The notes beneath the pieces are model-generated. The model was not told where the DNA came from. It saw only the letters and a list, made by a program, of their open reading frames with translations, and made no database searches. Position numbers and translations under genes: made by a program. A DNA stretch of 64,000 nt from an uncultured bacterium (GTDB lineage Bacteria > Bacillota > Clostridia > Lachnospirales > Lachnospiraceae), in the NCBI GenBank assembly GCA_947243845.1, contig CAMXIF010000007.1, positions 62,001-126,000 of the forward strand. Reading direction: 5' to 3'. Below, one piece after another: positions 18,359-42,162 of this stretch (the first letter of the stretch is position 1; the number at the start of each line of letters is the position of its first letter).

Positions 18359-19195
18359 TTATAGCGTCATGATCACGCCGCCGTCATTGGCATACATGCT
18401 GCTGATTCCGGCAGTATCCATGATAACCACATCTCGATAAGAAGCTCTCTTCTCCATCAGCCTGCGTAAGTACTGCGCGCGTTCCGGGCAGTTACAGTGT
18501 GTGATCATCAGTGTTCTCTCCTGGGGATTCTCCACATCGGCCACAATATTGTCTGCCATTTTGACCAGCGCCTTATTAATGCCGATTGCCTGGCCTTTTT
18601 GCTCGATGACACCCAGATTGCCTATCATTACAGGCTTTATGTTCAATGTAGATGCCACCAGCGCCTTGACACCGCTCAGGCGACCGTTTTTGCGCAGCGT
18701 CTCCAGATTATCCAGCACAAAGTAGGTGCGCATCTGTCTCTTAAAAATCTCCACCCTTTCCACCGTCTCCTCAAAAGAGAACCCTGCTTCCTTATATTCT
18801 ACTATCTTCATAGCCAGCTGTGTCTCTCCGCAGCTGGCAGATTCGGAATCTATGACATGAATCTTTTTCGCACCATATTTTTCCTCATAAAGGCTCTTTC
18901 CCAGTTCCGCGCTGTTATAGCTTCCACTTAAATGAGAAGAGAGCGTTACCACATAGATTTCCTCGGCTTCATCATGATAGGCCTCTCTATACTTTTCCGG
19001 GGAAGGACAGGACGACTTCGGACAGAGTGGATAGGCCGCCACCCGCTGTAAAAAATCCAGCTGATCGAAGGTCTCATCATCCGCTATCTCATAATCCCCG
19101 ATTTCCAGAGTCAGCGGCACTCTCTGGAAACGCGCATCTTCTTTATACTGCATCGGCAGTTCACAGCAACTGTCTACCACAATTTTATAACTCAT
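18359..19195 (-). CDS. DegV family fatty-acid-binding protein
   Basis: 278 aa. DegV/FakB fold: N-terminal IVVDSCCELP, ligand-loop region CPKSSCPSPEKYREAY, TLSSHLSGSYNSAELG, VIDSESASCGETQLA, LETLRKNGRLSG and the C-terminal TAGISSMYANDGGVIM. Such proteins present a bound fatty acid to the kinase FakA or carry it elsewhere; no fakA is in this window. The start at 19195 (MSYKIVVD) has GGAGG 6 nt upstream. A consensus promoter lies 78-106 bp upstream. A second DegV domain in this window is fused to a histidine kinase at 33196-35892. Confidence 0.9.
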   Translation of the reverse strand: MSYKIVVDSCCELPMQYKEDARFQRVPLTLEIGDYEIADDETFDQLDFLQRVAAYPLCPKSSCPSPEKYREAYHDEAEEIYVVTLSSHLSGSYNSAELGKSLYEEKYGAKKIHVIDSESASCGETQLAMKIVEYKEAGFSFEETVERVEIFKRQMRTYFVLDNLETLRKNGRLSGVKALVASTLNIKPVMIGNLGVIEQKGQAIGINKALVKMADNIVADVENPQERTLMITHCNCPERAQYLRRLMEKRASYRDVVIMDTAGISSMYANDGGVIMTL

Positions 19196-29121: not shown

Positions 29122-29150
29122 TTGATTTTATGTGAATATTGCTCTAAAAT
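29122..29150 (+). promoter_or_regulatory. SigA-type promoter of the HD-GYP/kinase cluster
   Basis: TTGATT (29122-29127), 17 bp, TAAAAT (29145-29150). The leader of about 79 nt carries the palindromic repeat at 29176-29208. Confidence 0.6.
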
Positions 29151-29175
29151 AAAAGTAAGTTCCATTGGCGTTAAC

Positions 29176-29208
29176 TTCACGAAATCCGCTTCGCGGACTC
29201 GGATAACA
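29176..29208. repeat. Copy of the CGAG/CTCG palindromic repeat in the HD-GYP gene leader
   Basis: TTCACGAAATCCGCTTCGCGGA with CTCGGATAAC; TCCGC-TTC-GCGGA (29185-29197) is the hairpin. Compared with 18130-18151 the closing pair has changed from C-G to T-A, keeping the stem. Confidence 0.65.
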
Positions 29209-29235
29209 ATTTCCTGGAATGAATCGAGGTGCCTT

Positions 29236-30309
29236 ATGAAAAATGTTATTTTGGTAGTGGATGATGATAAGACCAATCTGGCACTGGCGCAGAAGATTCT
29301 TGGCGCTCAATATCGTATTGCCGCCGCCATCTCCGGTGCGACCGCTCTAAGATATCTGGAAAACCACCATCCTGATCTGATATTGTTAGATATCAATATG
29401 CCGGGCATGGATGGTTTTGAAGTAATGGAAAAGCTGCGCGCCAATGTTGCCACCGAGTCGATTCCCGTAATCTTTCTGACGGCAGACAATCTTGCCGAGA
29501 CAGAGATCAAATGTTTTCAGATGGGGGCGCTTGATTTTGTGGGCAAACCATTTGTGCCCGATATCCTCTTAAGTCGTGTCAGCAAAACCATCGAACTTGA
29601 CCAGTACCGTCATAACCTGGAAAACATGGTGAACGCCCAGGCTGAAAAGATCACGGAAAACGCCAGACGTCTGGGAAGCATCCAGGAATCTGTCATCATC
29701 GGTATGGCCAATCTGATTGAAAGCCGTGATGGAAGTACCGGCAAACATGTAAAAAATACACAGACCTATGTCAAAATGATCGCCGATGAGCTGTACGCAA
29801 GAGGACTGTTCCCGGAAGAGCTGACTCCCGATTATATCCAGAACCTCTGCAAGGCTGCACCGCTCCACGATGTGGGTAAGATCAAGATCTCCGATGCCAT
29901 TTTGCAAAAACCCGGCAGACTGACGCCGGATGAGTTTGAGACCATGAAGTTACATACCACACACAGCCGCCAGATCATTAAGACGATCATCGGTGATATC
30001 GAAGATGAACACTATGTCCATATGGTGGAAGATATCGCCATGTATCACCATGAACGATATGACGGCACCGGATATCCCACCGGACTGACCGCAGAGAACA
30101 TACCGCTCTCCGCAAGAATCATGGCGGTTGCTGATGTGTTCGATGTGCTCTATGAGGAACGATGCTATAAGCCGCCGGTCCGCCCCATCGAACGTATCAT
30201 GCAGATTATGTCCGAGGGCAGGGGCTCACAGTTTGATCCTGTCATCCTCGATGTATTTATGGAACTGCTCCCGAAACTAAAAGAGCTGCTGCACATTTCC
30301 CAATCGTAG
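29236..30309 (+). CDS. Response regulator with HD-GYP c-di-GMP phosphodiesterase domain
   Basis: 357 aa. Receiver at residues 1-120 with acidic DDD, phosphoacceptor D in LLDINMP (about residue 53) and K in GKPF. A coiled linker leads to an HD-GYP domain: HDVGKIKI (about 210), HTTHSRQI, and HHERYDGTGYP (about 270), so metal ligands and the GYP triad are complete. It should cleave cyclic di-GMP when activated by phosphorylation. The start at 29236 has GAGGTG 7 nt upstream. The hybrid kinase 21 bp downstream is the obvious partner. No GGDEF protein is in this cluster. Confidence 0.93.
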   Translation: MKNVILVVDDDKTNLALAQKILGAQYRIAAAISGATALRYLENHHPDLILLDINMPGMDGFEVMEKLRANVATESIPVIFLTADNLAETEIKCFQMGALDFVGKPFVPDILLSRVSKTIELDQYRHNLENMVNAQAEKITENARRLGSIQESVIIGMANLIESRDGSTGKHVKNTQTYVKMIADELYARGLFPEELTPDYIQNLCKAAPLHDVGKIKISDAILQKPGRLTPDEFETMKLHTTHSRQIIKTIIGDIEDEHYVHMVEDIAMYHHERYDGTGYPTGLTAENIPLSARIMAVADVFDVLYEERCYKPPVRPIERIMQIMSEGRGSQFDPVILDVFMELLPKLKELLHISQS

Positions 30310-30330: not shown

Positions 30331-33180
30331 GTGGATAATATTCCGTTAAAGACATCTCACTCACAAAAAAAACTGGAACGTACCGTACTCGCTGTACTGA
30401 CTCTGTATACATTAGCCATGTTTTTTACCAGCCTGCTTTACGGTTGGAGTATCTATGTCAAAGAATTTATCTTCCTTCCCATGACGGCAGGATGGTTCGT
30501 CTACTTTCAGGAAGCCTGGAATCACGGGCGCAGGGCCCGGTTCATAGCCGTAATGGTCTGGATCAATTTTATCCTTTTTGCCATAAATACGGACAGTTTT
30601 CCTTCCATGCTCATCACCATGGCAGGCGTTATCGTTCTGCTCAGTATTTTCTGCATCAGACAGATTGTCTATCTGGGCCTGGTCATCCCCATTTTTATCT
30701 TTCTCTATCACGGCCTGATTGCCAGGACTATCAGTTTTGCCAACATCCACGATATCCTCCGCTTTTGTATCCAGTTTATCTCTCTTTACACGGTATCCGC
30801 AGTCATGTGGATCATTATCAGGGATCGACAGGACACCAGCGAACAGCTGCTGGAGAACATCCAGGAACTGGAAATTGCCGAGCGGAGCAAAGACGACTTT
30901 CTGGTCAACGTCTCCCATGAAATCCGCACCCCCATCAATGCGGTCTGCGGTTTGAGCGAAGCAATTTTACAGGAAAACCTCCCCGCGTCTGTCCGGCGCG
31001 ATGTGATAGACATACAGACTGCAGGACGCAATCTTCTCTCCACCGTCAGCAATATCCTGGATTTCTCGGAGCTGGAAAGCGGCAGACTGGAACTGGCGGA
31101 AGAAAGTTATAATATTACCTCCACGATCACTGATATCATCAATACCGCAATGACCATGGACAACGGCCGGCATCTGGAACTGATTGTGGACTGCGATGCT
31201 AATCTGCCCAGTAATCTGTTGGGGGATGAGCAGAAACTGCGCCGCATTATCCTGAACCTGATCGGAAATGCCGTCAAATTCACCAAGGAGGGCGGCATCA
31301 TCCTGCAAATCAGGAGCCGCAAAGAAGGATACGGCATCAATCTGACCGTCAGCGTAAAGGATTCCGGCATCGGCATCAAACGCGCTGATATGGAAAAAAT
31401 CTTTACCAGTTTCAGTCAAGTGGATGCCAAACGCAACCGCGAAGAAGGCGGTGTCGGTCTGGGGCTTGCCATCACGCAGGCGCTTGTGCGCAGTATGGGT
31501 GGCTTTATCACCGTGGACAGCGTTCCCGGCACCGGAAGCGAGTTTCTGTTTACAGTACCACAAAAAGTGCTGGACGAGACACCCATCGTGTCCATCAAAA
31601 ACAAGAAGAACCTCTTTGCCGCCTGCTACATCAACCTGGATAAATACAACTACTCTGTTATCCGTGAGGGATATGAAAACTGTATCAACCATATTGCCAG
31701 CCAGTTCGGCATCCTCTTCAGGGCCTGCCGGAATCTGCCGGAACTAAAGCGCCGGATGGAAAACGAGTCCTACTCCCACATTTTTATCGGTTGGGAAGAA
31801 TATAATGAAGACCGCAGTTTCTTTGAAAAGCTGGCCGAGGAATGTACCGTGGTGCTTTTCTTAGACTATGGTCAGGAGGTCTCCATTCGCGGAAATATGC
31901 TCCGCATCTATAAGCCCTTTACCGTGCTGTCTATCGCTGCCGTCTTTAACGGGCAGAAACTGATTCAAAACGAGGAACAGCATATCATGCTGCACAACAA
32001 ATTTGTCGCTCCCACAGCGAACATTCTGGTGGTAGACGACAATGCCATGAACCTTAAGGTGATGGCCCGGCTCCTTCTTCCCTATCAAATCAAAGTCACT
32101 ATGGCAGGCGGAGGTCAGGAAGCTCTGAACAAACTGAAAACACCGGAATTTGACTGTGTCTTCCTCGACCATATGATGCCGGAGATGGACGGTGTGGAGA
32201 CACTGCATAAGATCCGGCAAAACCCCAGCGCTTATTATCAGTCGCTTCCCGTCATCGCCTTTACGGCCAATGCCATCGGCGGTGCCAGGGAAATGTTTCT
32301 CTCCGAAGGCTTTAACGATTTTATCGCCAAACCGATTGAATTGAGTGTCTTGGAACGGCTGCTGCGCCGTTATATTCCAATCCAGAAACAGCAGATTGTC
32401 GAAGAAGAGACCGATTCTTTGTCTGTTTCTGCCGCTGCTTCTCCTGCCTCTCCTGAGCTGGCTGAAACTACAGGCAATACACAGGAAGAATCTGACTCCA
32501 AGGCGCTTGCCCTTTTGGCCAGATTCGGAATCAATATCGAGCAGGGTTATGCTTATTGCGGCGATAAGGAAGGGTTCCGTGAAATCATGGGAATCTTTCA
32601 TGCAGAAGGTGCAAAGCGTCAGGAACAGCTTGCCTTTTTGTTCCAGGAACAGGATTGGAAAAATTATGTGATCACAGTACACGCCTTAAAGGGAAATGCC
32701 AAAGGTATCGGCGCTGAAAATCTCTCAGAACTTGCCAGACAACTTGAGATGGCCGGCAAGGAAAACCGAATCGCCTATATCCTAACGCATCATGAAGAAC
32801 TGATGGAACATTACGGCCGCCTTCTGCGCGCCTTGCAAGACAGCGCTTTCCTCTATCCGGACGGTCCTCCAAGCCCCAAACAGACCGCAGCTGTCAGCAA
32901 AGACGGCTTTGAAAGCGCTGCCTCTACTTCCACAGCAACGGAGGTGGATGAACAATCGCTTACTGATCTGATCGTCCAGTTGGAGGAAAAATTGTCCTCT
33001 TTTGAAAATGAGGGCCTGAAAGAACTTTTAGACCGGCTTGCAGCCCTCAGATACTGCGGAACTCCACTCGCCGGGCTTTCGGAGAAGCTTCGTCAAATGA
33101 CAGCTGATTTCGACTTTCTAAGTGCTTCGGAGGCACTTAATGCCTGGAAAGAATCCCAGTCAGGCATCAGTGGCAAATAA
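30331..33180 (+). CDS. Hybrid sensor histidine kinase with pseudo-receiver, receiver and HPt
   Basis: 949 aa. Six or so membrane helices (about residues 17-165) are followed by a coiled linker, HisKA with H196 in VNVSHEIRTP, and HATPase with NLIGNAVKFT, DSGIGI and GVGLGLAI. Residues about 430-550 resemble a receiver but have FIGWEEY where the phospho-Asp should be, so it is a pseudo-receiver. A true receiver follows (VVDDN, D613 in FLDHMMPEMDG), then an HPt domain with H784 in VHALKGNAKGIG. It thus carries a complete internal phosphorelay. The start is GTG at 30331, behind AGAAAGGATG. It lies between the HD-GYP regulator and the kinase-DegV fusion in one probable operon. Confidence 0.9.
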   Translation: MDNIPLKTSHSQKKLERTVLAVLTLYTLAMFFTSLLYGWSIYVKEFIFLPMTAGWFVYFQEAWNHGRRARFIAVMVWINFILFAINTDSFPSMLITMAGVIVLLSIFCIRQIVYLGLVIPIFIFLYHGLIARTISFANIHDILRFCIQFISLYTVSAVMWIIIRDRQDTSEQLLENIQELEIAERSKDDFLVNVSHEIRTPINAVCGLSEAILQENLPASVRRDVIDIQTAGRNLLSTVSNILDFSELESGRLELAEESYNITSTITDIINTAMTMDNGRHLELIVDCDANLPSNLLGDEQKLRRIILNLIGNAVKFTKEGGIILQIRSRKEGYGINLTVSVKDSGIGIKRADMEKIFTSFSQVDAKRNREEGGVGLGLAITQALVRSMGGFITVDSVPGTGSEFLFTVPQKVLDETPIVSIKNKKNLFAACYINLDKYNYSVIREGYENCINHIASQFGILFRACRNLPELKRRMENESYSHIFIGWEEYNEDRSFFEKLAEECTVVLFLDYGQEVSIRGNMLRIYKPFTVLSIAAVFNGQKLIQNEEQHIMLHNKFVAPTANILVVDDNAMNLKVMARLLLPYQIKVTMAGGGQEALNKLKTPEFDCVFLDHMMPEMDGVETLHKIRQNPSAYYQSLPVIAFTANAIGGAREMFLSEGFNDFIAKPIELSVLERLLRRYIPIQKQQIVEEETDSLSVSAAASPASPELAETTGNTQEESDSKALALLARFGINIEQGYAYCGDKEGFREIMGIFHAEGAKRQEQLAFLFQEQDWKNYVITVHALKGNAKGIGAENLSELARQLEMAGKENRIAYILTHHEELMEHYGRLLRALQDSAFLYPDGPPSPKQTAAVSKDGFESAASTSTATEVDEQSLTDLIVQLEEKLSSFENEGLKELLDRLAALRYCGTPLAGLSEKLRQMTADFDFLSASEALNAWKESQSGISGK

Positions 33181-33195
33181 CAGAAAGGCCGGGTG

Positions 33196-35892
33196 ATGAT
33201 CATGTTGAAAAGAATCCATCGATTTATGAAAAAGCTATTTTCCCCACAACTGGAATTCCATGAGCGGCTTCTGCGCATGGTTTTATCCCTGGTATTTGCC
33301 GCTTCTGTGATCGGTACAGGGCGGGTCGCACTGGGCGCTGATTCCAGGATACTTCTGGCGTTGATTCCGATGTGTATACTCTCCGCCCTTTCTATCTGGA
33401 TTGTAGTGGACCGCCATAATGCCAAACTGGCATCCTGGCTGCTGATCATCGGTACGAATATGGTACTTTTCCCGTTTCTTTTTATCTCAAGCGGCGGGAT
33501 AGACAGCGGTACGCCCATGTGGTTTGTGTTGGGACTGATTTATATTTTCCTGCTCTTTGAGGGAAAATCCTTCTGGCTCGCCATGCTCCTATCCTCCGCC
33601 TCCTTTCTCATAACATACATTGTGGCTTACTTTTATCCTGATATCATACCGCCTGTGAAACGCTTTTACACTTTCACAGACTCCTATGTGACGCTGCTTT
33701 TTATCAGCTGCTTTATCGGTATTCTTTTAAAAATTCTATCAAGAACTTACGATCAGGAAAAAAGGCTGACGGAAAAACAGAAAGCGGAAGTGGAGCAGAT
33801 TGCCCGCTCCAAAGATACTTTCTTTACCAATATGAGTCATGAGATCCGTACCCCTATCAATACCATTATCGGTCTCAACGAAATGATTCTTCGGGAGGAC
33901 ATCTCCGATGAGATTGCGGAAAACGCTATCAATATCCAAAATGCCAGCAAAATGCTCCTTACCATTATCAACGACATCTTGGATCTGTCCAAATTGGAAT
34001 CCGGCAAAATGGAGATCATCCCCAACCAATATGAAATCAGCTCCATGTTCAGCGATCTGGTCAACCTGATCTGGGTACGGGCGCATCAAAAAGATTTGGA
34101 ATTTAAAGTGGACATTGATCCGGAGATTCCTTCCATGCTCTACGGTGATGAGGTCCGCATTAAGCAGGTCATCACCAATATGTTGACCAATGCAGTCAAA
34201 TACACAGACACCGGTTCTGTCACACTGCGTGCAAAAGGAGAGCGTGTCGCCGCAGACCAGATTCTGCTGCGTATCAGTGTGGAGGATACCGGTATGGGTA
34301 TCCGCAAAGAAAATCTGGATAATCTTTTCCGCTCTTTCAAGCGTGTGGACGAATCCGATACCCGCAGCATAGAAGGTACCGGTCTGGGACTCAACATATC
34401 CAAGCAGCTGATTGAGATGATGGGGGGCAAGATCACCGTGGACAGCGTGTATCATAAGGGATCTGTGTTTACCATAGAAATCCGGCAGCGTATCGTCAAT
34501 GTACGCCCCATCGGCGTCATCAATTTCGCCGCCCAGAAACAGTTAAGACACCGCTCCCGCTACAAGCAGAGTTTCACCGCACCGGATGCCAGAATCCTGG
34601 TAGTGGACGATAATACCATGAATCTGATGGTGGTTGTGAAACTGCTCCGAGATACAAAAGTCAGGGTAGATACCGTGGAGAGTGGCCGGGAATGCCTGAA
34701 AAAGACTGCCGAGAACGCATATCATGTTATCCTGATGGATCATATGATGCCGGAAATGGATGGAGAAGCTGCCCTGCATGCCGTCCGCAGCCAGACCAAG
34801 GGATTCTGTCAGAAAACACCTGTTATCGCCCTGACCGCCAATGTCATGACCGGTGCAGAACAGATTTACCGCAATATGGGCTTCGACAGTTATCTTGCCA
34901 AACCCATCAACACGGCTCTGTTAGAGGCCAGCCTGTTAAAATACCTGCCCCCGGAGTTGATCGAATATATGGCAGACGATACCGATTCGGATTCTGAAGA
35001 TACCAGCACTGTGAATCAGATACGCTCGGCCAGAAAACGTAAGATTGCCATCACCGCAGACTGCATCTGTGACCTGCCGGAAGACCTGCTGGAGCGTTAT
35101 CAGATCCGCCTCATGTACTGCTATGTCCACACAAAGGAAGGGAGGTTTTGCGATCTCTTTGAAATATCTTCCGACAGTCTGCTGCCCTATCTGCAACTAG
35201 AGGGCAACTATGCTCATTCTTCCACAGCGGATCCTGCGGAATACGAATATTTCTTTGCCGAGGCTCTGTCCGAGGCGGAACACGTAATCCACATCACCGC
35301 CACCGTCAGCCTGAGCGGCGCCTATCCCAACGCTGCCCAGGCCAGCCGAAGTTTTGATAATGTGACGGTAATAGACTCTACCCATATCAGCAGCGGCCAC
35401 GGCTTAATGGTACTTTATGCAGCCATGCTGGCAGAGGAAGGCAAGAGTGTTCCGGAAATCTGCGATGCCCTGGAAGAATACAGGACCCGCGTTTTCTCCA
35501 ACTTCCTGGTGCCCAGCACAGAAACCCTCTACCGCAATGGCAAAGTAAGCGGCATAGTTCACAAACTCTGCACTGGCCTGAACCTCCATCCCGTTCTCGC
35601 CATGTCCAAAAACAGGCTGAAACTCTGGAAGATCGAGACCGGCAGCATGCATCGGGCAAACAGTCAGTATGTCCGTAAACTTTTAAAACACAGCAAACAG
35701 ATCGACTCCCGCCTCCTTATCCTCACCTACGCAGGATGCAGCGTGCGTCAGATTGACGAGATTCTGGCCGAGGTAGAGAAATATATAACATTTGATAAGA
35801 TCATTCTGCAAAAAGCCTCCGCTACCGTGTCCAGCAACTGCGGTGTGGGCACCTTCGGGCTGATGTTTGCCAGGAAGCCGGTTGAACAGTAA
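33196..35892 (+). CDS. Hybrid histidine kinase-receiver fused to a C-terminal DegV domain
   Basis: About 898 aa. Membrane helices occupy residues 27-182. HisKA has H216 (TNMSHEIRTPINT); HATPase has MLTNAVKYT, EDTGMGI and GTGLGLNI. The receiver spans 465-585, with D516 in LMDHMMPEMDG and K570. After an acidic linker, residues 615-895 form a complete DegV fold: KIAITADCICDLPEDLLE, AHSSTADPAEYEYFF, ITATVSLSGAYPNAAQA, VIDSTHISSGHGL, TETLYRNGKVSG and SSNCGVGTFGLMF. DegV/FakB proteins bind a fatty acid, so this kinase may sense or present a lipid; that is inference. ATG 33196 is preceded by AAAGG; GTG 33193 is an alternative. Confidence 0.92.
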   Translation: MIMLKRIHRFMKKLFSPQLEFHERLLRMVLSLVFAASVIGTGRVALGADSRILLALIPMCILSALSIWIVVDRHNAKLASWLLIIGTNMVLFPFLFISSGGIDSGTPMWFVLGLIYIFLLFEGKSFWLAMLLSSASFLITYIVAYFYPDIIPPVKRFYTFTDSYVTLLFISCFIGILLKILSRTYDQEKRLTEKQKAEVEQIARSKDTFFTNMSHEIRTPINTIIGLNEMILREDISDEIAENAINIQNASKMLLTIINDILDLSKLESGKMEIIPNQYEISSMFSDLVNLIWVRAHQKDLEFKVDIDPEIPSMLYGDEVRIKQVITNMLTNAVKYTDTGSVTLRAKGERVAADQILLRISVEDTGMGIRKENLDNLFRSFKRVDESDTRSIEGTGLGLNISKQLIEMMGGKITVDSVYHKGSVFTIEIRQRIVNVRPIGVINFAAQKQLRHRSRYKQSFTAPDARILVVDDNTMNLMVVVKLLRDTKVRVDTVESGRECLKKTAENAYHVILMDHMMPEMDGEAALHAVRSQTKGFCQKTPVIALTANVMTGAEQIYRNMGFDSYLAKPINTALLEASLLKYLPPELIEYMADDTDSDSEDTSTVNQIRSARKRKIAITADCICDLPEDLLERYQIRLMYCYVHTKEGRFCDLFEISSDSLLPYLQLEGNYAHSSTADPAEYEYFFAEALSEAEHVIHITATVSLSGAYPNAAQASRSFDNVTVIDSTHISSGHGLMVLYAAMLAEEGKSVPEICDALEEYRTRVFSNFLVPSTETLYRNGKVSGIVHKLCTGLNLHPVLAMSKNRLKLWKIETGSMHRANSQYVRKLLKHSKQIDSRLLILTYAGCSVRQIDEILAEVEKYITFDKIILQKASATVSSNCGVGTFGLMFARKPVEQ

Positions 35893-35907: not shown

Positions 35908-38550
35908 CTATTTTTCATCACCGCTTTCCTCCTCTGCCGGGAAAACCTCTGTTGCCAGGGAATCCGCCGTTTCCACTATAGGAAGGCTCTTCGCTTTCTG
36001 AAAGGACACTGTCACCGTAAACAGATCAGCGTCTGTCTCCACGGTCAGTTCGCCGCCGCAGGCCTGGGTGAAACTCTTGGCAATGGACAGACCCAGTCCG
36101 CTGCCGCCGTCCGTACGGCTCTCATCGCCGCGCACAAAGCGCTCAGTAAAGTCTTTGGCGCTTTTCAGTTCCACACTGGACGTATTCTTCATCCGGACTA
36201 CAATATATTCCATTTCCTCAGCGAGCGTCAAATAAATTCTGGAACCTTCCAGGGAATAATGTAAGGCATTCTGCAGCAGGTTCTGGAATACCCGGTAGAG
36301 TCTCTGCCCGTCCGCCAATACCGGCATGGGTGTCTCCGGGATTGTCAGCTTCATCGTGAAGCTGCTCTGCGCAATCTGCACATTCATATCCGCCAGCGTC
36401 TGCCGCAGCAGTTTCCCCATATCCAGGACTTCCATCTGTATAGGCAGCTGCCCAGATGTCGCCTTACTCACCTCAAACACATCCTGCACGATATTTCTCA
36501 AACGTTCTGACTTTTCCCCCAGAATCTGGGTAAATTCCTTCACATGTTCCGGCAGATCCTGCTCCTGCCTGAGCAGTTCCACGTAACTGATGATGGAAGT
36601 TAACGGCGTCTTGATATCATGGGACACATTGGTCACCAGATCCACTTTCATCCGCTCGCTTTTAACCTGTTCCCGCAGCGCTGTCTCCATGCCTTTTTGA
36701 ATCTCGTTCAGGTTCTTTGCGGCCTCCTGTAAATCCGTATCTGCGGCCAACTGCAGATTCTCAGTCAGATTTCCCTCCCGTACCGCCTGGATCTGATCGG
36801 AAAGAGCGCCGATATCTTCCGCCAGCCGGCGGTTTTTACGGAGCGTCACGATATCAAGAATCATAAATCCAAGAAGCACACATAAGAATACAATGCCCAT
36901 TATCACTACGGCTGCAACAAAGCTATCAACGCCACTGCCATACATCCATTCATAAAACCACTCACACCATGCGCCGCCATAACCATATTCATAAGCTTCC
37001 GTACAAACCGCTGTCGTCCCGCATACCAGGCACAGAACCGAGCAGACTGCCCCTACAAACATGCATATGACAATCTCAATCGCTACTCTGATACGCTGTC
37101 TGCGTACCAGCCGCTTTTGCAGTGGGTATTTTAGGTCTCTCATCTTAAGCATATCGAAAAGCGGTTTCTTCTGCTTCTTTCTGTTGCCTTTCCAGTCCAA
37201 AACTGCCAGATAAAAGAGCCAGAAGAAAGCAGCCAGATAAGCGCCGGCCTGGTACATCCGGAAAGTTTCATAGGAAATATCCCCGCCCCAGCAACAATAA
37301 GAAGAGAATCCATTCCGTATTTTCCAGCAGGCTTCCGACAGCACACCTATGCTATTACCCGCCAGCCCAAGCAGGATCAGCAGGAATAATAGGACTTTCA
37401 CTTCCAGATACACTTTACCTGACAAAGCTGCGATTTTCTGATCTGCCAGCCGTTTGCTTTTATGCAAAAGCAAAGGAAAGGAAAGCGCCAGTAATATAGC
37501 AGATGTTATTAAATAGCCGCAGATTTCCTGAAACTCCCTGTGCATGGCCGTCCTTGCCTGTTTCATATAGTAGAGTCTGCCGCCATACTGGTCCACGCCA
37601 TAACCGCCGTAATCCCCCACCAGATAAAGCTGCGGATTCTTCGCCACGGCGATAAATACTCTGGCATCTTTGGCTGAATCTCCCAACGTAAAATTCGCAT
37701 AGCCCGGCACATACCAGAGACTGTCATCTCCATAGACGCCGTCACCGTACACGTCCACTTCCTGGCCATCCTTCACGATCCTTACTTTGCCATCGTCTTC
37801 CCGATTATACCAAAGGGAGAAATTATACTCCTCCAGCGGAAGCGCCGCGCCAAAATCAGATCCGTCCCACTCCTTTCCGATTTGTTCTTCATAACCATCG
37901 ATGTTAGAATAGAGCAGTTTATCCTGATACATAACTGCATAACGGATGTTTTTATTATGTGCCATATCGGCCATGTAATCATTCAGCATCTTCTCTTCAT
38001 CGTAATTCTCTGCGTACCAATCTTCATAGGAACCGTCATAAAGATTCCCATAATAATCGTTATAATATAATTCCTCTGCATCAAGCCCATACTCGGAGGC
38101 AATCGCCGTATATTCTTCCGCCTGATGTCTCTGCCGGTCCTCCCATACTTGCTGATAGTCGTCCGCATATGCAGCATCCGCAGCCTGCTCTATCACTACT
38201 TCTTCCACCACATCCGTCATAGCAGACCCATTGAATGCCCGGTCAAGCCATCCCGTATACCCGCCAAAGCCGTTGTCATAATAACCATAGGTTTCCGAAA
38301 ATGTCACAGCTTCACCATTCGTCCAGCCTTTACCGCCGGTAGCCACACTGATCAGATCGGACAGCCGTCCACTGACCAGGCTCCTAAACTCCTCACTTTC
38401 CTGATAATCCACACTGCCGTGGAAAGCCTGATCACCCAATGCCAAATACAATGAAACTGCCGGAACCAGATTCACAAGCAACATGGTCACACCGACAAAA
38501 AACACCACAAAACTACATATTACCTTACCTTTTTTCCATCTTGTATCCAA
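35908..38550 (-). CDS. Large multi-pass sensor histidine kinase
   Basis: 880 aa. A membrane helix at 12-35 is followed by a tyrosine- and acid-rich extracellular domain (about 40-330) with many YG/DY repeats, then five or six further helices between 345 and 565, a HAMP-like linker, HisKA with H in NVSHDIKTP (about residue 641) and an HATPase domain ending in GSGLGLSIAKSF. The kinase end resembles VanS/EnvZ-type enzymes. The start is TTG at 38550, 9 nt after AAAGGTGG, and overlaps the regulator gene by 26 nt, implying coupling. It converges on the kinase-DegV gene with 15 bp between stops. Signal unknown. Confidence 0.9.
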   Translation of the reverse strand: MDTRWKKGKVICSFVVFFVGVTMLLVNLVPAVSLYLALGDQAFHGSVDYQESEEFRSLVSGRLSDLISVATGGKGWTNGEAVTFSETYGYYDNGFGGYTGWLDRAFNGSAMTDVVEEVVIEQAADAAYADDYQQVWEDRQRHQAEEYTAIASEYGLDAEELYYNDYYGNLYDGSYEDWYAENYDEEKMLNDYMADMAHNKNIRYAVMYQDKLLYSNIDGYEEQIGKEWDGSDFGAALPLEEYNFSLWYNREDDGKVRIVKDGQEVDVYGDGVYGDDSLWYVPGYANFTLGDSAKDARVFIAVAKNPQLYLVGDYGGYGVDQYGGRLYYMKQARTAMHREFQEICGYLITSAILLALSFPLLLHKSKRLADQKIAALSGKVYLEVKVLLFLLILLGLAGNSIGVLSEACWKIRNGFSSYCCWGGDISYETFRMYQAGAYLAAFFWLFYLAVLDWKGNRKKQKKPLFDMLKMRDLKYPLQKRLVRRQRIRVAIEIVICMFVGAVCSVLCLVCGTTAVCTEAYEYGYGGAWCEWFYEWMYGSGVDSFVAAVVIMGIVFLCVLLGFMILDIVTLRKNRRLAEDIGALSDQIQAVREGNLTENLQLAADTDLQEAAKNLNEIQKGMETALREQVKSERMKVDLVTNVSHDIKTPLTSIISYVELLRQEQDLPEHVKEFTQILGEKSERLRNIVQDVFEVSKATSGQLPIQMEVLDMGKLLRQTLADMNVQIAQSSFTMKLTIPETPMPVLADGQRLYRVFQNLLQNALHYSLEGSRIYLTLAEEMEYIVVRMKNTSSVELKSAKDFTERFVRGDESRTDGGSGLGLSIAKSFTQACGGELTVETDADLFTVTVSFQKAKSLPIVETADSLATEVFPAEEESGDEK

Positions 38551-39223
38551 TACCCCACACCACCTTTATATATTCTGGCTCTTTCGGATTCAGCTCGATC
38601 TTTTCCCTGATATGGCGAATGTGTACCATCACGGTGTTCTCCGGCGCGAAGGACGGTTCCTCCCAGACTCTCTCATAAATCTCCTCTGCCGGAAAGATTC
38701 TTCCCCTGTTTTTCATGAGAAGTTCTATGATCTTGGTCTCTGTGGCAGTCAGCTTCACCGGCTCTCCGTCCACATAGAGCGTGCGTTCCTGCAGCCGGTA
38801 GCAGAGCCTGCCGTTTGCAATCTCATCTTCCTCGTGCTGTGCATGGATGCCGCCAAGCATCGTATACCTGCGAAGCTGGCTTTTAACCCGGGCCGCCAGC
38901 TCCTGAGGATTGAAAGGTTTGGACACATAATCGTCCGCCCCCATGGAAAGTCCCAGAATCTTGTCCGTATCTTCCGTCTTAGCGCTCAAGACGATAATGG
39001 GCAGATTCTTCCGTTCCCGAATCTTCATCATGGCAGAAAGCCCGTCCAGCTTCGGCATCATCACATCCATGATGATCAGCTGCACCGATTGTTCTCCCAG
39101 AATCCGCAATGCCTCCATGCCGTCATACGCCTTAAGCACACGATAACCTTCCTTTTCCAGAAGAAGGGCTATGGCCCGCACAATCTCTCTGTCGTCATCC
39201 ACCACCAGCACACATTCGTTCAT
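38525..39223 (-). CDS. OmpR-family response regulator (VanR-like)
   Basis: 232 aa. Receiver with VVDDDREIV, phosphoacceptor D in IIMDVMMPKLDG and K in SKPFNPQELAARV; the winged helix spans about 130-230 (VKLTATETKIIELLMKN to EPEYIKVVWGIGYKM). The start at 39223 (MNECVLVVDDD) has GAGG 8 nt upstream. It pairs with the large kinase that overlaps its 3' end. Upstream lies a perfect palindrome (39280-39295) that could be its operator. Target genes are not evident. Confidence 0.93.
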   Translation of the reverse strand: MNECVLVVDDDREIVRAIALLLEKEGYRVLKAYDGMEALRILGEQSVQLIIMDVMMPKLDGLSAMMKIRERKNLPIIVLSAKTEDTDKILGLSMGADDYVSKPFNPQELAARVKSQLRRYTMLGGIHAQHEEDEIANGRLCYRLQERTLYVDGEPVKLTATETKIIELLMKNRGRIFPAEEIYERVWEEPSFAPENTVMVHIRHIREKIELNPKEPEYIKVVWGIGYKMEKR

Positions 39224-39263
39224 TGTTAAAACCTCACTTTTCCTTAAGCCTGTTGTCATCATA

Positions 39264-39312: not shown

Positions 39313-42162
39313 TTATTCCCTCTTCGCCTGCTCCAGAAACGCAGCCACATCCTCGGAAACGCCTTCCAGCAGATATTGCTTCCCCCCGGTCTTTCCCTCC
39401 GTCTTCTCTATATATTCCTGCCGCAGATCCTCCGCTGCCAGCATCACTTCTTCCCTCAATTCCCTGGCAGAGACCCTGACTGCCCCGGCTCCCATGATGA
39501 TCAGCTGTTCCAGTCCATCCGAAGTTGCCACCCGTACGCGGTACTTCCGATTCATCGCATGGGCTACTTTCTCAATATATTGGTCGGCCGTCTCCGCCTC
39601 CTTTGTATAGACCACATCAATATTGTGATACCGCACCACACTGCCGGGATTCCCCTTCACTTTATAAGCATCAAACACAAGGATCAGCCGCATCTTACGG
39701 TATGCCTGATAATTGCTCAATATATCCATCAGTCTGCCTCTGGCGCCATCCAGGCTGGTCCTGGCCAGTTCCTGCAGTTCTTCCCAGGCAAAGATGATAT
39801 TATAACCATCTACCAACAGATACTCTTCCCGTGGACTCGTCTGCCCCTTATACTTCGTATCGGCTTCGTCCAAAGAACGGATTGTCTTTGCCCACCCCTG
39901 CTTCTTCCTTTCCCTGGAACCATAGGTACGGTTAAAAATCTCCTCAATCTCCTCCTGCCCAATAAAATCCTCAGCAGTGCTGGATGTATTGGCGCCGCTT
40001 CTCCTGGCATATCTGACTGCAAAACTTCCTGTCTCTTCTTCTATGTTTTCTATCTCTTCACCATTTTCACGATAGTATTGACTACTTCGGTCATCCTCAT
40101 TGCCATAAACCGTCCCATCCCGCAGTTTCCATCCCTTAGTCAGGGCAGATTCCAGATGCATATACGATTCCACCTGGTCCCACTCCACCACGAAACCCGC
40201 ACCATGGGCGCAGAACACGGAACCGCAGGGATTGTCCATATCATGTTCTGCCTCATAACCTGCCTTTTCAATGACTTCCTCCGCATTATGACATGGCTCA
40301 TACCCCTTTAATACCGTGGTCAGATGCCCTTTTCCGCCGGAATAGGCCAGCAGCTTGGCCTGATAACCGCCCATCTCAGATACCGGTACCGTGCCTGTGA
40401 GAATTGCATACTCTCCCTCCGTCTCCGGGGTGCCAAAGTTCCCAGACCTGGCCTGCATATCCGTCATGGCACGTCCGATCAATGCCGCCGGGACTTCTAT
40501 CCGAAACGTATAGACCGGCTCAAGCAGCACGCTCCTGGACTTACAGAGTCCCTGTCTGAGCGCCCGGTAAGTGGCCTGCCTGAAATCCCCGCCCTCGGTA
40601 TGTTTCAAATGAGACTTTCCTGCCGCCAGGGTAATCTGCATATCCGTGATCGGTGAACCGGTCAGCACGCCCAGATGCTCCTTTTCCTCCAAATGCGTCA
40701 AAATCAGCCGCTGCCAGTTCTTATCCAGTTTATCTTCACTGCACCGGCTGTGAAACTGCAGCCCGCTGCCCCGCTCCCCCGGTTCTAAGATCAGATGCAC
40801 CTCCGCATAATGCCTGAGTGGTTCAAAGTGACCTACGCCCTCCACCACATCAGCGATGGTTTCCTTATAGACGATGCTTCCCTCGTCAAACTCCACCTCC
40901 ACACCGAACCGCTCCCGGATCAGATTCCGCAAAATCTCAATCTGCACCTCTCCCATAAGCTGTGCATGTATCTCACCAACCTGCTCTCTCCAGACAATAT
41001 GAAGCTGGGGTTCCTCCTCTTCTAGTTGACATAACATATTATACATGCGATGTACGTCACTTCCCGCTGGCAGGACAATGCGGTATGTCATGACAGGTTC
41101 CAGGAATGGTACTGTGTCCTCCTGCTCGGCACCAAGTCCCTGTCCGCAGAAAGTCCGCACCGGCCCCGCCAATGCGCAGATAGTCCCGGCTGATACTTCC
41201 TGCTCTATCGTGTATTTTTCGCCGCCATACAAACGTATCTGGTCGATTTTTTCCTCCACAACAGCATCCGCGCCTGCTACCGGCTCCAAACCGGCATCCA
41301 TGCCGGTCTCCGCCCCCGCACGTCTGTCCCGCCCAGAAACGCTGATCGTCTGCTTCACCTTCAGACTGCCGCCGGTCACTTTTACATGAGTCAGCCTGAC
41401 GCCCTGGGCATCCCGCGTTATCTTAAACACCCTCGCCCCAAAATCCGTGCCATAAGCAGGCATGCGGGTATAGCTGGAAAGCCCATCCAGAAGTTCTTCC
41501 ACCCCTTCCCCCTTAAGGGCGGAACCAAAGAAACAGGGAAACAGCTTCCGCCCGGCAATCAAACCCGCTATCTCACCCGCGCTTATGGGCTCCTGACAAT
41601 CTTCCTGTTCCAGATACTTCTCCAGCAATCGCTCATCACATACCGCCACATTTTCATAAAACGAAGCCATCTCCTCCGCATTCCGACAGACAAAAGATAC
41701 GCACCGCTCATCCAGACTTTTCTGAAGTTCTGCAAGCAGTGCGTCTGCCTCCGTTCCCGGCTGATCCATTTTATTGATAAAAAGAAACACTGGAACCTGA
41801 TAGCGTTCCAGCAGTTTCCAGAGAGTCAGTGTATGTCCCTGCACGCCATCTGCACCGCTTATGATTAAAACCGCATAGTCCAGCACCTGCAAAGTCCGCT
41901 CCATCTCCGCCGCAAAATCTACATGTCCGGGAGTATCCAATAACGTGACTTCTATATCCTTCCATTTGAATAACGCCTGTTTCGAAAAGATGGTAATGCC
42001 CCGCTCTCTTTCCTGCCTGTCCGTATCCAAAAAGGCATCCTTATGATCCACCCGCCCCAGTCTGCGTATCATACCGCTTAGATAGAGAACCTGTTCCGCC
42101 AATGTCGTCTTACCTGCATCCACATGGGCCAGGACACCCAACACCAATTTCTTATCACTCAT
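39313..42162 (-). CDS. Tet(M)-like translational GTPase fused to a C-terminal NYN (Rae1/YacP-like) domain
   Basis: 949 aa. Residues 1-655 follow elongation factor G/Tet(M): G1 AHVDAGKTT (12-20), RERGITI (switch I), DTPGHVDF (G3), NKMD (G4), then beta-barrel and domains III-V with GEVQIEILRN and GGKGHLTTVLKGYEPC. A linker of about 120 residues, variable in look, leads to a NYN domain (about 778-915): LLVDGYNIIFAWEEL, LILVFDAYKVKG, VVYTKEAETADQYIEKV, VATSDGLEQ, the acidic set used by YacP/Rae1-type ribonucleases. Rae1 cuts mRNA in the ribosomal A site, the site reached by Tet(M)-like GTPases, so this looks like a ribosome-targeted nuclease. It follows cobS by 7 nt on the same strand. I would not call it a tetracycline-resistance gene. 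Confidence 0.93.
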   Translation of the reverse strand: MSDKKLVLGVLAHVDAGKTTLAEQVLYLSGMIRRLGRVDHKDAFLDTDRQERERGITIFSKQALFKWKDIEVTLLDTPGHVDFAAEMERTLQVLDYAVLIISGADGVQGHTLTLWKLLERYQVPVFLFINKMDQPGTEADALLAELQKSLDERCVSFVCRNAEEMASFYENVAVCDERLLEKYLEQEDCQEPISAGEIAGLIAGRKLFPCFFGSALKGEGVEELLDGLSSYTRMPAYGTDFGARVFKITRDAQGVRLTHVKVTGGSLKVKQTISVSGRDRRAGAETGMDAGLEPVAGADAVVEEKIDQIRLYGGEKYTIEQEVSAGTICALAGPVRTFCGQGLGAEQEDTVPFLEPVMTYRIVLPAGSDVHRMYNMLCQLEEEEPQLHIVWREQVGEIHAQLMGEVQIEILRNLIRERFGVEVEFDEGSIVYKETIADVVEGVGHFEPLRHYAEVHLILEPGERGSGLQFHSRCSEDKLDKNWQRLILTHLEEKEHLGVLTGSPITDMQITLAAGKSHLKHTEGGDFRQATYRALRQGLCKSRSVLLEPVYTFRIEVPAALIGRAMTDMQARSGNFGTPETEGEYAILTGTVPVSEMGGYQAKLLAYSGGKGHLTTVLKGYEPCHNAEEVIEKAGYEAEHDMDNPCGSVFCAHGAGFVVEWDQVESYMHLESALTKGWKLRDGTVYGNEDDRSSQYYRENGEEIENIEEETGSFAVRYARRSGANTSSTAEDFIGQEEIEEIFNRTYGSRERKKQGWAKTIRSLDEADTKYKGQTSPREEYLLVDGYNIIFAWEELQELARTSLDGARGRLMDILSNYQAYRKMRLILVFDAYKVKGNPGSVVRYHNIDVVYTKEAETADQYIEKVAHAMNRKYRVRVATSDGLEQLIIMGAGAVRVSARELREEVMLAAEDLRQEYIEKTEGKTGGKQYLLEGVSEDVAAFLEQAKRE

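Follow-up and report, generated by a model that had tools for sequence, protein, structure and literature searches.

In FakB1 of Staphylococcus aureus, a protein of the FakB/DegV fold, the carboxylate network consists of Thr62, Ser95, Ser171 and His270, while Arg173 is needed for catalysis and Arg205 serves FakA and membrane docking, according to passages of PMC8892158 and PMC9136124. As to kinases, RpfC of Xanthomonas binds the fatty-acid signal DSF (diffusible signal factor) directly, via its N-terminal 22 residues (excerpt of PMC5391125), and SaeRS of S. aureus is inhibited by free fatty acids (excerpt of PMC5539427), so that fatty-acid control of kinases has precedents. Here we analysed a stretch of 64,000 nucleotides, hereafter the window, from an uncultured bacterium of the Lachnospiraceae (assembly GCA_947243845.1, contig CAMXIF010000007.1, positions 62,001 to 126,000), in which two hybrid histidine kinases, HK1 and HK2, are encoded side by side and HK2 ends in a DegV domain. 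We propose, with moderate confidence, that this domain is the ligand-sensing module of an HK1-HK2 phosphorelay, detached from the fatty-acid kinase and gating the flow of phosphate.

HK2 (33196-35892, forward strand) is a single uninterrupted open reading frame (ORF) leading from membrane helices through HisKA, HATPase and receiver domains and a flexible linker to a full-length DegV domain (Table 1). The frame spans 33193-35892 from a GTG at 33193; counted from the ATG at 33196, its product has 898 residues. This ATG lies 15 nt downstream of the HK1 stop codon (33178-33180), and 7 nt separate it from the end of an AGAAAGG (33182-33188) resembling a ribosome-binding site; a scan for sigma-70 promoters and terminators gave about as many matches as shuffled sequence did. 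With HisKA, HATPase, receiver and both acceptor residues, HK2 has the full set of features of a hybrid histidine kinase, and an alignment of 38 proteins with this layout, among them that of the window, shows His and Asp at the acceptor positions in every one. An earlier note on this DNA, made from the sequence without database searches, had described a kinase-receiver-DegV fusion in one chain, and the intact ORF and its domains bear this out. Its acceptors H216 and D516 were also the right residues, numbered one too high: from the ATG they are H215 and D515. The DegV part matches Pfam PF02645 over profile positions 1-279 of 280 (150 bits, cut-off 27) and NCBIfam TIGR00762 with 158.5 bits (cut-off 99.7), and among the best 25 NCBIfam matches no kinase model reaches its cut-off.

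The C-terminal domain, for which the earlier note had proposed a structure prediction with a fatty acid, was modelled by itself and gave a confident FakB fold: AlphaFold2, run with 23 sequences, returned a mean predicted local distance difference test score (pLDDT) of 93.5 and a predicted template modelling score (pTM) of 0.90. Foldseek matched the model to DegV/FakB structures, with query TM scores of 0.80-0.87 over the first 20 ranks and 0.76-0.87 over the first 45; the top rank was 2dt8 (E 2.6e-26), and several of the matched structures had been solved with a fatty acid. We considered a FakA_C-type identity and rejected it, since the FakA-like_C Pfam match (20 bits) stays below its cut-off of 23 and the model reaches a TM score of 0.42 with FakA_C (6w6b), as against 0.87 with palmitate-loaded FakB1 (5uto). 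In the HK2-type DegV, the segments aligned with FakB1 27-62 and with the lid (164-186) are of full length; these are segments that are missing from FakA_C or that make up the lid.

We searched 100 family genomes, counting that of the window among them, with the HK2 DegV part as query, and matches were listed to about E 3e-14. The fusion, taken as a DegV match within an open frame of at least 870 residues, occurs in 27 places across 19 of these genomes. All but one have the order HisKA-HATPase-receiver-DegV; the remaining one is HATPase-DegV only. This last protein (L064:7951-10560, 870 residues) holds a HATPase, an HK1-type pseudoreceiver and the DegV domain in one chain, while neither HisKA nor a receiver was detected in it. 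We left two shorter open frames, each of about 600 residues, out of the count: L065:6117-7898, which joins Dak2, the FakA middle domain and DegV as a one-chain FakA-FakB, and L066:6160-7827, a HAD hydrolase-DegV fusion. Within the genus, 36 of 41 genomes match the HK2 DegV at E 1e-40, and 45 of the 46 matches lie in frames of at least 626 residues. Two of 245 genomes of the class, both from another family (f178), carry the HK1-HK2 pair as well; in the phylum (398 genomes), the long frames among the matches listed are those of the window's genome and two others of its family, together with a 580-residue frame (G168). In a scan of named genomes, the best 80 of 585 loci were kept and 22 of these (L116-L137) hold the fusion, 16 of them labelled Lachnospiraceae and the rest labelled Oscillospiraceae, Clostridiales, Ruminiclostridium or an uncultured bacterium.

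The ratio of nonsynonymous to synonymous substitution (dN/dS) against eight copies of the same genus was 0.05-0.11 for the DegV part and 0.04-0.08 for the kinase part, rough values given that dS exceeds 1 in seven of the eight comparisons; a ninth pair was saturated. A frameshift that would make DegV a separate gene, which the earlier note had named as one finding that would undo its reading, was looked for and none was found, and an artefact from a neighbouring gene was likewise rejected, the one-ORF layout recurring in many genomes. That the fusion arose by chance, is decaying or reflects an assembly error is hardly credible: it is intact in many independent genomes, under purifying selection and within one clade, and we found no evidence in favour of such an origin.

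The single clade emerged from a tree of 112 rows, in which all 51 DegV domains linked to the system fall on one side of one branch (length 1.07; SH-like approximate likelihood ratio test, SH-aLRT, 100), the tree being a quick search with some long branches. Forty-eight of the 51 sit in hybrid kinases, one is in the kinase-like chain of L064, and two (L052 and L060) are separate proteins beside HK1 that keep the Asn described below, with no DegV kinase in the stretch read. We compared the 51 linked domains with 57 ordinary DegVs, after dropping six of 63 ordinary loci (five without a central match, and L087, a frame of 580 residues); since the ordinary loci came from searches with PF02645 or the linked domains, this set leans towards likeness. 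At the position of FakB1 His270, 49 of the 51 linked domains have Asn (with His in L042 and Thr in L058), as against His in 56 of the 57 ordinary ones, the exception being the stand-alone DegV of the window with Tyr. Arg205 is retained by one linked domain (L039) but by 53 of 57 ordinary DegVs, and Arg173, kept in 57/57 ordinary DegVs, is lost in 30 of the 51 and retained in 21. Ser95 is present in 32 linked domains, the window's among them, versus 54 of 57. Loss of Ser171 says little and is no mark of the family, because that position is Gly in 56 of the 57 ordinary DegVs.

In the window itself, the positions of the Thr62-Ser95-Ser171-His270 network hold Ser (Thr by an alternative reading of the alignment), Ser, Asn and Asn, so the FakB1 network is not preserved, and the arginine pair of a FakA-coupled FakB is replaced by Lys and Thr. 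The C-terminal S-x-x-C-G-x-G-T-F-G block of the earlier note is indeed there; its actual form, SSNCGVGTFG, has Asn for the usual His. What survives of the note's lipid-binding kinase domain is thus a built-in, full-length and conserved FakB/DegV domain that is under purifying selection and most plausibly serves in signalling; its picture of a complete fatty-acid holder is weakened by the changes at the His270, Arg173 and Arg205 positions. With both arginines and the His altered, the HK2 DegV is hardly a substrate carrier for FakA. Nevertheless, the near-invariant Asn/Ser pair and the low dN/dS indicate a domain that has been selected and has not decayed, and the former head-group site (domain residues N269 and G271) is among the most strongly conserved parts of the clade.

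These residue counts bear directly on whether the domain might be an output, in which phosphorylation of the receiver frees or loads a kinase-controlled FakB that hands fatty acids to FakA. The DegV comes after the receiver, where output domains commonly sit, and a FakA-type (Dak2) gene is present in the genome. However, the loss of the two arginines does not suit such a carrier, and in ten long proteins a histidine phosphotransfer (Hpt) domain follows the DegV, so that the relay runs on past it; we regard an output role as improbable. The one Dak2 gene of the genome lies about 3.4 kb from one of five stand-alone DegV genes, which suggests that ordinary fatty-acid uptake need not use HK2. One stand-alone DegV (18359-19195) is encoded in the window, as the earlier note had pointed out; it carries Tyr where FakB1 has His270, Arg205 is absent, and the closest solved structure is 3jr7 from Ruminococcus gnavus. 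We saw nothing to connect this protein with the relay.

The earlier note had treated HK2 alone and overlooked the kinase just upstream, with which the DegV kinase is paired at most loci. Outside the window, 46 of 50 loci have HK1 or a piece of it directly before the DegV gene (43 long kinases and three partial ORFs, at L049, L053 and L130), an upstream partner being any same-strand ORF of at least 200 residues that ends -130 to +400 nt from the DegV gene. At two of the four exceptions the contig begins nearby (L042, L136), at a third a short ORF intervenes (L120), and the fourth is L064. BLAST with the HK1 pseudoreceiver hit an ORF at 43 of these 50 loci versus none of 58 other kinase loci (L138-L195). 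Across the 100 family genomes, the pseudoreceiver profile (E <1e-20) and the HK2-type DegV agree in 99, with both present in 19 and neither in 80; in the lone disagreement (G011), which has the DegV without a pseudoreceiver match, a contig of 4551 bases keeps only the end of an HK1-like ORF. The HK1 of L122 (2946-6010) has Arg in place of the acceptor His, gives no receiver match and keeps its Hpt, and a separate REC-Hpt gene precedes it; judged by its residues, it appears to be a natural pseudokinase version.

Our best sign that the two kinases work together is the position of the Hpt. Of 42 whole pairs, counted without partial HK1 ORFs, 32 have it in HK1, eight have it as the C-terminal part of the DegV kinase and two have it in the ORF directly after that kinase; in no pair do both kinases carry it. 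None of 38 shorter DegV kinases (most of about 890 residues) has an Hpt, while 32 of the 34 adjoining HK1 proteins do; the HK1 of L057 and L137 lack it, and at both loci an Hpt ORF directly follows HK2. Conversely, all ten long DegV kinases (1123-1154 residues) carry the Hpt after the DegV, and none of their eight adjoining HK1 proteins has one. At L222, which is outside these counts, BLAST placed the Hpt in a neighbouring ORF. An Hpt-bearing ORF was available in 48 of the 50 other loci, a single one in 40 of them, the two loci without being L042 and L064. An Hpt that changes place and is never present twice within the pair suggests that both kinases serve one relay.

Based on these findings, we picture the system as follows. 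HK1 and HK2, both membrane hybrid kinases, would autophosphorylate and phosphorylate their receivers, and the Hpt of the pair, in the window the tail of HK1, would take phosphate from both. From there it would pass to a response regulator, presumably the upstream REC-HD-GYP protein, so that the output in the window is probably a phosphodiesterase of cyclic di-GMP (c-di-GMP); in other genomes the pair is adjoined by GGDEF regulators or a CheA-CheW-MCP set (MCP, methyl-accepting chemotaxis protein). The FakB-fold domain, split from the fatty-acid kinase, would now act as a cytoplasmic sensor, and a putative ligand in the rebuilt head-group site (Asn881, Ser875) may alter the engagement of HK2 with HK1 and thereby gate the phosphate flow. 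The ligand might be a fatty acid or some other small amphipathic compound.

Although a sensor is the most economical account of the HK2 DegV, its main rival deserves attention, namely that the domain is a protein-interaction adaptor whose fold was kept and whose ligand was lost, and which docks HK2 to HK1 (e.g. to the pseudoreceiver) or to the Hpt. Such a role would fit the shared occurrence of this DegV type and the HK1 pseudoreceiver in genomes, the persistence of the DegV beside HK1 in L052 and L060, where no DegV kinase was found, and the single chain of L064, where the DegV follows an HK1-like pseudoreceiver. FakB and FakA_C themselves bind each other (passage of PMC9136124), and the charged lid and more polar tunnel positions of the linked domains point the same way. 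However, an empty adaptor need not keep the former head-group site, which is strongly conserved, and the stretches matching FakB1 27-62 and 164-186 are of full length, while positions 121, 158, 162 and 191 are uncharged in 51/51, as they also are in the ordinary DegVs. We therefore consider an adaptor rather unlikely, and keep the sensor as our preferred reading.

Several observations weigh against this sensor-and-relay model. The membrane-inserting helix of the lid is charged at its exposed positions 177 and 180 in 28 and 26 of the 51 linked domains, respectively, versus none of the 57 ordinary DegVs (the window has Ile and Lys). The linked set is also more polar at position 158 of the tunnel and 165 of the lid, so that the domain may be unable to accommodate or exchange a long-chain fatty acid. 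The full-length AlphaFold2 model of HK2 has a pTM of 0.40, at which contacts between domains are not readable. Among the 50 fetched stretches, eight hold two or three Hpt-bearing ORFs (L041, L061, L122, L126, L129, L132, L133 and L137), which weakens the idea of exactly one Hpt per locus and means that the pair's Hpt need not be the sole partner. Five of the 80 genomes scored as having neither component give weaker pseudoreceiver matches (6e-18 to 2e-7) without an HK2-type DegV. Lastly, c-di-GMP genes are not clearly enriched beside the pair: on the same strand within 7 kb, the 50 other loci have HD-GYP in 12 and GGDEF in 11, and the 58 control kinase loci, on any strand, have them in 11 and 15. 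A special association with c-di-GMP enzymes is weakened accordingly, and a c-di-GMP output fits the window without being a mark of the system.

The HD and GYP motifs of the window's regulator can be read in the translation of 29122-30309. In the same neighbour counts, MCP, CheA and CheW occur near 7, 5 and 5 of the 50 loci, versus 3, 0 and 0 of the controls. At L046 the gene order is CheA, CheW, MCP, HK1, HK2 (Pfam), and at L039, L045, L048 and L051 the pair has same-strand ORFs for CheA, CheW and MCP nearby (BLAST), which suggests a link to chemotaxis-like signalling. Convergent to HK2, the reverse strand at 35908-39262 encodes a histidine kinase of the membrane type together with a response regulator whose tail is of a DNA-binding type (read by eye); the two are also found at L037. 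Further on, 39313-42162 (reverse strand) encodes a ribosome-protection/EF-G type translational GTPase, which appears to end in a YacP-like NYN domain, going by motifs read by eye in its translation.

Table 1. Features of the HK1-HK2 locus and its surroundings, in window coordinates.
Feature	Position	Strand	Basis or remark
Stand-alone DegV	18359..19195	-	Pfam 190 bits
REC-HD-GYP response regulator (c-di-GMP phosphodiesterase type), likely output	29122..30309	+	Pfam; 21 nt before HK1
HK1, HisKA-HATPase-pseudoreceiver-receiver-Hpt, 949 aa	30331..33180	+	Pfam and locus comparison
Degenerate receiver of HK1, between HATPase and receiver	31564..32016	+	Acceptor Asp absent, KP motif kept
Hpt of HK1 (H784)	32581..32769	+	Pfam 28 bits, cut-off 24.6; sole Hpt found in the window pair
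HK2, hybrid histidine kinase-receiver-DegV, 898 aa	33196..35892	+	ORF and Pfam; alternative GTG start 33193
N-terminal membrane region of HK2, about six helices, residues 20-180	33253..33735	+	Helices in the full-length AlphaFold2 model only
HisKA of HK2, phospho-acceptor H215	33811..34005	+	Pfam 59.6 bits, residues 206-270
HATPase_c of HK2	34144..34488	+	Pfam 92.2 bits, residues 317-431
Receiver (Response_reg) of HK2, phospho-acceptor D515	34594..34929	+	Pfam 73.1 bits, residues 467-578
Flexible linker, HK2 receiver to DegV	34972..35031	+	pLDDT <50 at residues 593-612
DegV (FakB-fold) domain of HK2, residues 616-893	35041..35874	+	Pfam, AlphaFold2, Foldseek
Lys783, position of FakB1 Arg173 (catalytic Arg)	35542..35544	+	Alignment
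Thr815, position of FakB1 Arg205 (FakA and membrane docking)	35638..35640	+	Alignment
Ser875 (domain position 263), clade-specific	35818..35820	+	Ser in 48/51 linked; Gly in 52/57 ordinary
Asn881, position of FakB1 His270	35836..35838	+	Asn in 49/51 clade members

Among the open-access papers listed in searches for DegV with kinases, none describes a kinase-DegV architecture in its title or the beginning of its abstract; subscription papers and domain-architecture databases lie beyond this scope, and the latter may list it. Of two papers that mention both terms, PMC3146951 concerns gene neighbours of hemolysin III, and PMC12288450, on FakB networks, clusters the DegV domains of many species and uses neither 'histidine kinase' nor 'fused'; in the passages seen, the architecture is absent from both. 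If the HK2 DegV binds a lipid or a related metabolite, it would represent a receptor class for the intracellular lipid state that is wired into phosphorelays of gut and rumen bacteria. To our knowledge, such a class of cytoplasmic lipid-state sensors would be unlike any known kinase input. The clade-specific Asn/Ser site makes the question of the ligand testable with one purified domain. Even without a ligand, the pair would stand as two kinases with the Hpt now in one, now in the other. Furthermore, the DegV clade has apparently departed from the pathway of the fatty-acid kinase, and an annotation of its members as fatty-acid carriers would mislead. A broader scenario, which we offer tentatively and as doubtful, is that a carrier fold was captured once and became the ligand subunit of a two-kinase phosphorelay, where it reads an intracellular lipid or lipid-like metabolite, signals via the co-travelling pseudoreceiver and couples the lipid state to c-di-GMP or chemotaxis in Lachnospiraceae of gut and rumen.

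Set against known systems, the HK2 DegV model shares its fold with FakB/DegV proteins (FakB1 of S. aureus, 2dt8, 1mgp), and Ser95 is kept in the window; unlike them, it is fused to a kinase, has Asn, Lys and Thr at the His270, Arg173 and Arg205 positions, and belongs to a separate clade of 51 members. DhaQ, an EDD-fold relative of DhaK from Lactococcus lactis (2iu4, 2iu6), is another case of an EDD-fold ligand binder reused in regulation, with a weak fold match (TM 0.54-0.58); DhaQ, whose PDB title calls it an operon co-activator, works with a transcription factor and not with a kinase. With SaeRS, the system may share a dependence of kinase signalling on the fatty-acid pool inside the cell, and we know of no FakB-like domain in the SaeRS kinase. 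In the RpfC-RpfG layout, a membrane hybrid kinase with an Hpt adjoins a REC-HD-GYP regulator, and here such a regulator likewise lies beside a hybrid kinase, in the window as near 12 of the 50 other loci, with a possible fatty-acid-like cue; the likeness concerns the layout, and here a second kinase bears a cytoplasmic FakB-fold domain. Finally, hybrid kinases of the BarA, TorS and RcsC type share the HisKA-HATPase-receiver core with conserved His and Asp, and an Hpt, which here is found in the pair. In contrast to these, the HK1-HK2 system consists of two neighbouring hybrid kinases that share one Hpt, and HK2 ends in DegV; we read it as a probable hybrid kinase phosphorelay that has put a DegV-fold protein to a new use.

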